Source of the DNA: an uncultured Rhizobiaceae bacterium
GTDB lineage: Bacteria > Pseudomonadota > Alphaproteobacteria > Rhizobiales > Rhizobiaceae
Length of the DNA stretch: 64,000 bases
NCBI GenBank assembly: GCA_947259295.1
Contig: CAMYMG010000036.1
Location: 62,001 to 126,000, forward strand
Direction: 5' to 3'
Of this stretch, positions 37,059 through 42,102 are shown piece after piece. The position numbers and the translations under genes were made by a program. The notes below the pieces were generated by a model. It had not been told where the DNA came from. It did no database searches and was given only the letters and a program-made list of their open reading frames with translations. Each line of letters opens with the position of its first letter. Positions within the stretch are counted from its first letter, which is position 1.

Positions 37059-37418
37059 CTACGCTTCCGGGTCGTTCTCCAGCAGGATCGGCTTGCCGTG
37101 CGGCGTGGCATGCGCGGCGCGCTGCCATGCGGCGGCCAGTCCGTCGATGTCGCTCGCGCCGGCGATACCCTTGGCCGCGAGCATTCGTTCCAGCGCGCGC
37201 AGCCAGCACTGGTAGTAATCGCTGCCATCGGCCGCAACGCCGGGCCGCTTCACCTCCTGCGACAGCATTTCCGCCCATTCCGGCCAGGTGAACAGCCCGC
37301 GCTCATGCAGCGCCACGACCATGGCGAAGGCCTCAGCCTGCCAGGGTTCGTCGAAGGGCCGCGGGTCCATGGCGGAGACCTGGATGTCAGGCGGGCTCAA
37401 GGTAGCTTCCCCAGGCAT
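37059..37418 (-). CDS. Nitrile hydratase accessory protein
   Basis: FDEPWQAEAFAMVVALHERGLFTWPEWAEMLSQEVKR...DYYQCWLRALERMLAAKG; downstream of NHase beta. Confidence 0.88.
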   Translation of the reverse strand: MPGEATLSPPDIQVSAMDPRPFDEPWQAEAFAMVVALHERGLFTWPEWAEMLSQEVKRPGVAADGSDYYQCWLRALERMLAAKGIAGASDIDGLAAAWQRAAHATPHGKPILLENDPEA

Positions 37419-38043
37419 CGATCGACACCGTCAGCGTCGGGTCGGCGTCCTCGCCCCAGATCTCCTTGCCGGTGAAAACCACGGTATAGACCCGTTGCGG
37501 CTGCTCGCCCTCTCCATGCGCATTGCTGTCGGGGAACACGAACCCCTCGTGCACGGTTTCCACGACGCCTTGCTTGGCCCGGGCATAGCGCGGCAGCCGC
37601 GTGTGGCCGCTCGGGCTGAAATTCTTCGTCACCACCAGGTCGCCCGCCTTGAAGCGCGGCGTCTCCACCGGCCGGTCGCAGGGGCCGCCGCGCGCCAGCA
37701 CCGCCGGCACGTCTTCAGCCTTCAGCACGCGCTTCGGCGACGCCGCGGCGTCCACCGCCCTGCCCTCCGCGAGATCGCGCTCGCTGACGAAGCCGTGCCG
37801 TTTCAGCAGCCGCTCCAGCCCCTTGATCCAGATTTCGTAATAGCTCGACGACAGATAGTCGACCGGATGCCGGTTTTCGCGCGCGTGCCGGCTTTCGTCG
37901 ATGTTCCAGGCGCCGAGCGCGCCCGAGGCAAGCGTCAGGCCGAGCGCCCGCTTTTCCCAGTCGGCATGGAACACCGGTTCGTCGATCTCCGGCGCGACCG
38001 GCCCGAGTCCCATCTGGCCGCCGAGGTCGTGCGGCCCGTTCAC
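37387..38043 (-). CDS. nthB: Nitrile hydratase subunit beta
   Basis: [19 protein letters not shown]...[35 protein letters not shown] start overlaps alpha stop. Confidence 0.95.
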
Positions 38044-38660
38044 GCCGCCTCCGGCGCCAGCGCCAGCCCGGTGCCGATCATCGAATCGCGCGTCACCAGT
38101 CCAGCGAGCTTTTCCTCGCTCCAGCCCTCGGTGCCGGCCGGGCGCTCGGGGACCACCAGATAGCGCAGTTCAGCGGTCGAATCCCAAACGCGGATTTTCG
38201 TCTCGGCGGCCAGCGTCAGCCCGAATTCGGCCAGCACGCCGCGCGGATCGATCACCGCCCTGCTGCGATAGGGCGGCGCCTTGTACCAGACCGGCGGCAG
38301 CCCGAGCACCGCCCAGGGATAACAGGAGCACAGCGTGCACACGACGAGGTTGTGCGTGTCGGGCGTGTTGAACGCCGCCTGCATGTGCTCCCCCTGCCGC
38401 CCGGTGAAGCCGAGCGAGGCGATCGCCGCCGTGGCGTCCTTGCGCAGCCAGTCCGCATAGGCCGGATCGCTCCAGGCCTTGGCGACGACCCTGGCGCCGT
38501 TCCTCGGGCCGATCTTGTGCTCATAGGTGTCGACGATGACGTCTATCGCGGCGGCATCGACCAGCCCCTTCTGGGTCAGGATCGTCTCCAGCGCCCGCAC
38601 CCGCGCCGCCATTGGGCCGAACTCATTGTCGTGGTGGTCGTGATCGTGGTCATGCGCCAT
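38040..38660 (-). CDS. nthA: Nitrile hydratase subunit alpha (cobalt-type CTLCSC motif)
   Basis: [29 protein letters not shown] metal-binding motif; H/D-rich N-terminus. Confidence 0.95.
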
Positions 38661-38826
38661 GGCGGGAAAATATGCCTGGCCGCGGCCCGCCGCAAGCCGC
38701 CAGATTTCAGCGCAGCATTGGCCAGAGCGTCGCGCTCAAAGCAGATGACACCCGCTGTCGCCTCAGGATTGGAAAGGCACCCCGCCAGGAACCCGGTCCC
38801 GGCGGTATGATGTGCGCGGCGTCTGG

Positions 38827-39165
38827 TCAGGCGATGATGCCGAGTAGCGACGCGACGATGGCGCGGACATCGGCCAACACCTGCTCGGGCGCATGTTCGA
38901 TGAAGCGGAAGCCGCGCCCCTCTCGCTGCAGCGTGCGTGGCTGGTCGGCCAGGACCGCCCCGATCGTCTCCATGCCCGGTGGCAAGATGACCTTGGTGGG
39001 CCAGAATGTGGTGTTCCGTGTAATCGGGCAAACGACCGACCTTGGATACAAGGAGTTATACGCCTCGTCCGTCAGGACGATCGCCGGCCGTCGGCCTCCC
39101 TGCTCAGTACCGATCACGGGATCGAACACCACCCAGACCAGATCACCGGCCTGCAAGCGGGTCAT
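38827..39165 (-). CDS. MazF/PemK family toxin
   Basis: MTRLQAGDLVWVVFDPVIGTEQGGRRPAIVLTDEAYNSLYPRSVVCPITRN. Confidence 0.94.
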   Translation of the reverse strand: MTRLQAGDLVWVVFDPVIGTEQGGRRPAIVLTDEAYNSLYPRSVVCPITRNTTFWPTKVILPPGMETIGAVLADQPRTLQREGRGFRFIEHAPEQVLADVRAIVASLLGIIA

Positions 39166-39451
39166 CCATCGCAATGCCTCCGCGCGAATACGCGTCGTCG
39201 ATGGCCTCCGAACCCACGTCAGGTCCCCATTCGACGGTTTCCGGTGCGTTTTCAGGCCCGAGACGTTTCGTCTCCGAGATGATCCATGCCAGCGTCATCT
39301 TGCGCGGCCGGACGGGCTCGATGATGCCTTTGCCGTCCCTGACGGTGAGTTCCACCGTCTGACCCGGCTTCAAGCCTAGCTCTTCCATCACCGCCTTAGG
39401 CAAGCGGATACCGGCACTGTTGCCCCATTTGGAAATCTGTACCGCGGTCAT
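39143..39451 (-). CDS. MazE/AbrB family antitoxin
   Basis: MTAVQISKWGNSAGIRLPKAVMEELGLKPGQTVELTVRDGKGIIEP; overlaps mazF start. Confidence 0.94.
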   Translation of the reverse strand: MTAVQISKWGNSAGIRLPKAVMEELGLKPGQTVELTVRDGKGIIEPVRPRKMTLAWIISETKRLGPENAPETVEWGPDVGSEAIDDAYSRGGIAMDDPLAGR

Positions 39452-40147: not shown

Positions 40148-41929
40148 CTAGACGAGTTCCCGGCCCTTGGCGTCGATGGCATTGGCCACCGCCTCGTCGG
40201 TCGCCTCGTCGGGCAACAGCATCTCGTTGTGCGCCTTGCCCGACGGGATCATCGGGAAGCAGTTAGCGAGCGTCACGACGCGGCAGTCGAAGATCACCGG
40301 TTTCCTGACGTCGATCATCTCCTTGATCGCATCGTCGAGATCGCCAGGCTTCTCGCAGCGTATGCCGTGGCCGCCATAGGCCTCCGCCAGCTTGACGAAG
40401 TCCGGCATCGCCTCGGTGTAGGAATGCGACAGCCGATTGCCATGCAGCAGCTGCTGCCACTGGCGCACCATGCCCATGTACTGGTTGTTGAGGATGAAGA
40501 TCTTGATCGGCGCGTCGTACTGAACCGCGCAGCTCATCTCCTGGATCGTCATCTGCACCGAGGCGTCGCCGGCGATGTCGATGACCAACGCGTCGGGATG
40601 CGCAATCTGCACGCCAAGTGCGGCCGGCAGGCCGTAGCCCATCGTGCCGAGCCCGCCCGACGTCATCCAGCGGTTCGGCTCGTCGAAATGAAAGTGCTGC
40701 GCCGCCCACATCTGGTGCTGGCCGACCTCGGTGGTGATGTAGGTGTCCTTGCCCTTCGTCGCCTCATAGAGCCGCTGCACGGCATACTGCGGCATGATCA
40801 CGTCATTGTTGGGCGTGTAGGCCAGCGAATCGCGCGCGCGCCACTTGGCGATCTGCTCCCACCACGGGTGCAGGCTCTTCTTGTCCGTCTTGACGGTCGC
40901 CCGCCACAGCCGGACCATATCTTCCAGCACGCGGCCGACATCGCCGATGACGGGCACGTCGGCACGCACGTTCTTGTTGATCGACGACGGGTCGATGTCG
41001 ATGTGGATCTTCTTCGAGTTCGGCGAAAACGCGTCGAGACGTCCGGTGATGCGGTCGTCGAAGCGCGCGCCGATGCACACCATGACGTCGCAGTCATGCA
41101 TGGCCATGTTCGCTTCGTAGGTGCCGTGCATGCCGAGCATGCCCATCCAGTTCCTGCCGCTCGCCGGGTAGGCGCCAAGCCCCATCAGCGTCGAGGTAAT
41201 CGGGAATCCGGTCAGCTCGACCAGTTCGCGCAGCAACTGGCTCGCTTCCGGGCCCGAATTGATGACGCCGCCGCCCGAATAGATGATCGGCCGCCTGGCC
41301 GTCGCCATCAGTTCGACCGCCGCCTTGATCTGGTTGAGGTCGCCCTGCACCTTCGGCTGGTAGCTGGTGCGCGGCGCCGTCTGCGGCGGCGTGTAGATGC
41401 CCTTTGCGAACTGGACGTCCTTCGGAATGTCGACGACCACCGGGCCGGGACGTCCCGTCGTTGCGACGTGGAACGCCTCGTGGATGATGCGCGACAGGTC
41501 GTTGACGTCCTTGACCAGCCAGTTGTGCTTGGTGCAGGGCCGCGTGATGCCGACCGTGTCGCATTCCTGGAAAGCGTCCGAGCCGATCAGCGACGTCGGC
41601 ACCTGGCCGGTCAGGCAGACGAGCGGGATGGAGTCCATCAGCGCGTCCTGCAGCGGCGTCACGGCATTGGTGGCACCGGGTCCCGATGTCACCAGCATGA
41701 CGCCCGGCTTACCCGTCGAGCGGGCATAGCCTTCTGCGGCATGGCCGGCGCCCTGCTCGTGGCGGACCAGGATGTGCTGGACCGCGTCCTGCTGGAAGAG
41801 CTCGTCATAAATCGGCAGCACGGCGCCGCCCGGATAGCCGAAGAGGTGAAGGACGCCATTGTCCTTCAGTGCCTGCACAACCATTTCCGCGCCGGTCATT
41901 TCGCGCTGTTCGTATTGTCCGTGGCTCAT
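40148..41929 (-). CDS. ilvB: Acetolactate synthase large subunit
   Basis: MTGAEMVVQALKDNGVLHLFGYPGGAVLPIYDELF...; ALS3 TPP enzyme throughout; start ATG 41929. Confidence 0.97.
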   Translation of the reverse strand: MSHGQYEQREMTGAEMVVQALKDNGVLHLFGYPGGAVLPIYDELFQQDAVQHILVRHEQGAGHAAEGYARSTGKPGVMLVTSGPGATNAVTPLQDALMDSIPLVCLTGQVPTSLIGSDAFQECDTVGITRPCTKHNWLVKDVNDLSRIIHEAFHVATTGRPGPVVVDIPKDVQFAKGIYTPPQTAPRTSYQPKVQGDLNQIKAAVELMATARRPIIYSGGGVINSGPEASQLLRELVELTGFPITSTLMGLGAYPASGRNWMGMLGMHGTYEANMAMHDCDVMVCIGARFDDRITGRLDAFSPNSKKIHIDIDPSSINKNVRADVPVIGDVGRVLEDMVRLWRATVKTDKKSLHPWWEQIAKWRARDSLAYTPNNDVIMPQYAVQRLYEATKGKDTYITTEVGQHQMWAAQHFHFDEPNRWMTSGGLGTMGYGLPAALGVQIAHPDALVIDIAGDASVQMTIQEMSCAVQYDAPIKIFILNNQYMGMVRQWQQLLHGNRLSHSYTEAMPDFVKLAEAYGGHGIRCEKPGDLDDAIKEMIDVRKPVIFDCRVVTLANCFPMIPSGKAHNEMLLPDEATDEAVANAIDAKGRELV

Positions 41930-41992
41930 CGGTCGGTTCCGTTTTCGCTTCGCCGTCTGGCGTTGATGGTCGTTAGTCCGGTTTCGGGCAAT

Positions 41993-42015
41993 AAAAAAGG
42001 CCCCCGAGGGAGCCT
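41993..42015 (-). terminator. Leader (attenuator) terminator upstream of ilvB
   Basis: Reverse strand AGGCTCCCTCGGGGGCCTTTTTT: GC-rich stem plus six Ts. Confidence 0.8.
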
Positions 42016-42048
42016 GTGTCTTGCGCATGGGAGGATTTCGCCCGGCGG

Positions 42049-42102
42049 TTACACCGCCTTGCCCACACGCCTTCCTACTACGAGAATGCTGATCTTTTTC
42101 AT
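42049..42102 (-). CDS. Leader peptide MKKISILVVGRRVGKAV of the ilvBH operon
   Basis: 17-codon ORF on reverse strand with consecutive I-S-I-L-V-V; followed by hairpin and terminator, then ilvB. Confidence 0.75.
   Translation of the reverse strand: MKKISILVVGRRVGKAV

Follow-up and report, generated by a model that had tools for sequence, protein, structure and literature searches.

The window considered here, i.e., the whole stretch of 64,000 nucleotides analysed from an uncultured bacterium of the family Rhizobiaceae, encodes on its minus strand the two subunits of acetolactate synthase, namely (i) the large subunit, ilvB/ilvI, at 41929-40148, and (ii) the small subunit, ilvH/ilvN, at 40084-39512. 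The former gene, called ilvB in a first-pass annotation made from the letters alone, matches NCBIfam NF006581 (PRK09107) at 1222.8 bits and is the gene taken to be controlled by the leader described below; the latter matches NCBIfam NF008864 at 223 bits and, judging by gene order and strand, presumably lies in the same operon. Further downstream of ilvH, at 37387-39451 on the minus strand, ORFs resemble, by their translations, nitrile hydratase subunits and a MazF/MazE-like pair.

Upstream of ilvB, likewise on the minus strand, a sigma-70-like promoter (TTGACT-18 nt-TATTGT, 42140-42111), the only one of this type in the scanned stretch, ends its -10 box 8 nt before the ATG of a 17-codon leader ORF (42102-42049), read from the sequence as MKKISILVVGRRVGKAV plus stop, and homologous leaders with a run of branched-chain amino acid (BCAA) codons are present at nearly all inspected loci of the same RNA family. 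The sensor codons ATC AGC ATT CTC GTA GTA (I-S-I-L-V-V) occupy 42093-42076 and are followed, within leader codons 11-14, by the 5' arm of a long-range stem, hereafter P1 (GCGTGTGGG, 42070-42062), the 3' arm of which (CCCATGCGC, 42031-42023) is complementary to it with one G-U pair. P1 encloses a hairpin including the stop codon (GGCGGT-GTA-ACCGCC, 42058-42044), apparent in the sequence and from covarying positions in a scan of 127 sequences, and is separated by a linker of 7 nt (42022-42016) from an intrinsic terminator, AGGCTCCCTCGGGGGCCTTTTTT, made of AGGCTCC-CTCG-GGGGCCT and a T-run (42015-41993), the helix of which is conserved and which stands between leader ORF and gene. The ORF with its I-S-I-L-V-V run, the stop-codon hairpin, the pairing of 42062-42070 with 42023-42031 and the terminator upstream of ilvB had all been pointed out in the first-pass annotation and are indeed there; the terminator does precede the ilvB ATG at 41929, but by 63 nt rather than the 64 bp claimed.

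An Rfam scan assigned positions 42100-41983 of the minus strand to RF02502 (Atu_C8), the match covering the full length of the model (1-122 of 122) with a score of 99 bits against a gathering threshold of 50 bits (E 2.7e-21). Short ORFs from shuffled copies of the leader, for their part, contained five I/L/V in any six residues in 71 out of 14,817 cases; on these counts and on the family match, the element is far beyond chance. Of note, TTGCC-like bases right after the T-run (41983-41992 in the window), i.e., past the termination point, are well conserved among the homologues.

The copy before ilvB is the only one in the source genome, as revealed by a genome scan, while the family was found in 291 of 298 Rhizobiaceae genomes and in 179 of 298 genomes across the order. 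Among 127 inspected homologues, 116 encode an I/L/V-rich peptide and are followed by an ilvB gene, so that a short ORF rich in these residues stands before the matching biosynthetic gene at 116 ilvB-linked loci, as ISILVV does in the window. Seven Rhizobiaceae genomes have no such element; in five of them no biosynthetic ilvB scores above the curated cut-off, and the other two, the reduced genomes G458 and G518, do have the gene; all six reduced genomes tested that carry the element have ilvB. Regarding other alphaproteobacterial families, a single one of the 29 ilvB loci searched (L243) was found both by a leader-plus-terminator scan and by model R1, two approaches the reach of which may be limited. 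Some genomes carry more than one copy before ilvB: at L036 and L037, two ilvB genes arranged in tandem are spaced by about 2.7 kb and are individually preceded by an attenuator copy, and the genomes of L031, L074 and L077 possess a second ilvB that has diverged from that of the window (70-75% identity) and likewise bears an attenuator.

Across 84 alignable ilvB leaders, the peptide reads I/L, I/L, V, V, then usually G-x-R-[MV]-G-[RK]-x-V, with the residue class kept constant and the codons varying between ATT, ATC, CTT and CTC on the one hand, and GTA and GTG on the other hand, Val being nearly always encoded by one of the latter two. Both Val residues of the sensor are encoded by GTA in the window; across six of the window's genes, GTA accounts for 1.2% of the 170 Val codons and ATT for 7.8% of the 115 Ile codons. 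A metabolite riboswitch or a protein-binding leader would also present itself as a structured 5' leader with a terminator; nonetheless, RF02502 is the only Rfam family to pass its gathering score in the scanned stretch, loop sequences are variable and what is conserved is the translated I/L/V run, which leaves such a reading extremely improbable. As for translation of the leader, of the 51 Rhizobiaceae leaders in which a promoter can be recognised, 50 have a -10 box ending 6-9 nt ahead of the ATG, and a Shine-Dalgarno (SD) match of at least 4 nt is absent in 90 of 97 Rhizobiaceae leaders; on this basis, translation of the leader of the window probably proceeds from a leaderless or nearly leaderless message, with a predicted transcription start. 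In some other families, among which the Devosia-type ilvB leaders, a GGAG-like SD is found instead.

The suggestion made at first pass that ilvB 5' regions be compared across Hyphomicrobiales is borne out, with I/L/V-run leaders and terminator conserved and the long-range stem covarying. In 40 diverse copies, 98.6% of the P1 cells are paired and 7 of the 9 P1 pairs have both partners changed, P1 thus being a conserved stem whose 5' arm sits in the last codons of the leader, and the terminator helix is paired at 97.9%; taken jointly, the two helices reach 98.3% with both-side changes at 8 pairs, 7 of these in P1. For the whole structure, the covariation score amounts to 0.365 versus 0.190 in shuffles, none of the 500 shuffles scoring as high. 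The outer pairs bracketed by Rfam, which join bases before P1 with bases after the T-run, were considered as well, and they are mostly mismatched in the window and do not figure among the top covarying pairs of the 127-sequence scan.

The same covariation bears on whether the RNA would act primarily in trans, as a small RNA ended at 41993 whose position before ilvB is incidental. While Rfam classifies the family as "Gene; sRNA" and trans activity of attenuator RNAs is known from related bacteria, rnTrpL of Sinorhizobium meliloti being an example (PMC7298713, PMC10117765), the two arms of P1 change together without restriction from one family to another and hence retain no fixed antisense sequence, and the location before ilvB is kept together with the BCAA ORF in the 116 copies mentioned above; a primarily trans-acting RNA is decidedly improbable. 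A dual function, by which a cis attenuator would additionally release an RNA and/or a 17-aa peptide acting in trans, by analogy with rnTrpL/peTrpL, appears rather unlikely: the anatomy equals that of S. meliloti trpL, where a leaderless sORF opens the attenuator RNA, but the C-terminal half of the peptide is dictated by the arms of P1 and of the hairpin, so that its conservation is no proof of a function of the peptide.

From these features, the element of the window is very probably a ribosome-mediated transcription attenuator of the ilvB-ilvH operon. The term "classical" applied to it by the first-pass annotation holds as far as BCAA attenuation of ilvB is concerned but not for the switch in the strict sense. 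In all of the 126 parsed homologues, a gap of 3-10 nt lies between P1 and the terminator, with zero overlap, and neither there nor in the window does a stem exclude the terminator through shared bases. Both helices exceed a probability of 0.7 in 122 of the 126 parsed copies, with means of 0.98 for P1 and 0.94 for the terminator in the 116 ilvB copies. A simulated ribosome gives P1 a probability of 0.96 when placed on Ile6 and of 0.00 when placed on the stop codon, the terminator being unchanged, and blocking P1 in the model leaves the probability of the terminator unaffected. No third helix competing with the terminator emerged from the pair probabilities computed with the terminator forbidden and/or P1 blocked, and the all-against-all covariation scan of 127 sequences recovered P1 and the stop-codon hairpin with no partner for the terminator.

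P1 being free of any overlap with the terminator and both co-folding, the classical step by which an antiterminator excludes the terminator is therefore not supported. Yanofsky-type attenuation, with an antiterminator sharing bases with the terminator, does have counterparts among distant relatives, namely at L243, the ilvB locus of another alphaproteobacterial family, and in six MFS leaders (L092, L159, L160, L161, L164 and L165), where P1-type arms enter the 5' arm of the terminator in the same register; set against the linker of 3-10 nt in the window and all parsed close homologues, it remains improbable for the element considered here. We read P1 of the window as a likely homologue of this overlapping antiterminator, now sitting a few bases upstream. 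In the folding model, P1 reports the position of the ribosome; since the simulated ribosome shifts P1 but not the terminator, secondary structure alone leaves the effect of P1 on termination unexplained. Because P1 shares no bases with the terminator here, a steric effect is proposed, whereby P1 folded 3-10 nt upstream would keep the terminator hairpin from fully closing in the exit channel of the polymerase, a tentative idea, and the least certain step of the model, which we hold to be possible rather than likely. The narrow range of the linker suggests that the distance between P1 and the terminator matters. As such, the first-pass observation is confirmed and its interpretation is correct in outline, with a base-pairing logic that is incomplete.

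The attenuator favoured here would work as follows, where we infer the transcription start, the stalling and the favouring of read-through by P1. RNA polymerase would start at the leader AUG or a few bases from it, and a ribosome would load on the leaderless message. With charged Ile, Leu and Val tRNAs plentiful, the ribosome would reach the stop codon and cover the 5' arm of P1, P1 would be blocked, and the terminator would end transcription, releasing an RNA of about 110 nt, i.e., the "Atu_C8 sRNA". With these charged tRNAs scarce, the ribosome would stall on the I-L-V-V codons, two of which are the rare GTA, P1 would form, and the polymerase would read through into ilvB. The element thereby probably restricts the synthesis of isoleucine, leucine and valine in the cell to times of shortage. 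For the window, this is ordinary and explains the control of ilvBH; for the family, it provides a clean test of an attenuator whose ribosome-sensed stem shares no bases with the terminator.

In several genomes, second copies of the element stand before an MFS gene of the Bcr/CflA family instead of ilvB (L032:1401-1518, L033, L082, L085, L087, L088, L089, L013 and L014, and, in named genomes, L156, L157, L166, L170, L172, L188, L189 and L224), the MFS genes matching TIGR00710 with E 1.1e-47, which is below the curated cut-off, and 6.5e-65. The scan of named genomes relied on an MFS alignment, with attenuator matches obtained by our own model and confirmed with Rfam; it placed the attenuator before an MFS gene in Devosia ureilytica, another Devosia, Rhizobium lusitanum, R. 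sullae, Rhizobium sp. R634, Mesorhizobium sp. WSM4311 and two further Rhizobiales, all eight with E 1e-16 to 1e-23 under our own model. A tree built from 81 MFS proteins groups 18 of the 19 labelled carriers in a single branch of 19 rows, the carrier label changing 3 times versus 17.4 in shuffles. MFS-linked leaders average 3.9 Val and 0.8 Leu, versus 3.4 Val and 1.6 Leu in ilvB leaders. A further copy (L086, G559:C10:1141-1260), with the leader MKTALMVVIGRMGRMV, precedes an ABC exporter-like gene, neither ilvB nor MFS.

With a confidence somewhat short of even, these copies could point to a second job of the family, in which a Val-rich leader (e.g., MKIAMVLVVVIGRMGRMV) would control one clade of Bcr/CflA MFS exporters in Rhizobium, Mesorhizobium and Devosia, turning efflux on when charged Val, Ile or Leu tRNA is short, both uses operating via a stem adjoining, not overlapping, the terminator. 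If this reading is true, the pump might be triggered, e.g., by natural compounds that inhibit BCAA synthesis or aminoacyl-tRNA synthetases, and the family would tie the sensing of amino-acid starvation to a conserved exporter class in soil and root-associated bacteria. No earlier report of MFS-linked attenuator copies was found in a literature search that left out most subscription journals, nor did it return any work combining transcription attenuation, leader peptide, MFS transporter and efflux.

Compared with known systems, the element of the window is not new, contrary to what its first description implied. It coincides from end to end with Rfam RF02502 Atu_C8, a Rhizobiales sRNA; whereas Rfam labels this family an sRNA gene, it appears here as the attenuator leader of ilvB with a conserved leader ORF, and the RF02502 "sRNA" is better described as a cis attenuator leader of ilvB whose leader ORF is coding and conserved. 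An attenuator of ilvIH in S. meliloti has been in the literature since its prediction by Vitreschak et al. (2004), as listed in PMC2573895, and on that listing this close relative shares with the window a BCAA attenuator, there placed before ilvIH. The ilvBN leader of Caulobacter crescentus (Tarleton, 1994), which PMC4117421 describes as an attenuator carrying Ile and Val codons in tandem, shares with the window, on the features given there, these tandem codons and a terminator before ilvBN, but lies outside RF02502, a control set including Caulobacter vibrioides having given no match. In S. meliloti trpL, the leader ORF is leaderless and the terminated RNA accumulates as the sRNA rnTrpL (PMC10117765, PMC7298713); while that system senses Trp and controls trpE, the leader of the window has I/L/V codons before ilvB. 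The switch of the window is, as such, already known, and the detached stem and the MFS-linked copies are the parts worth following.
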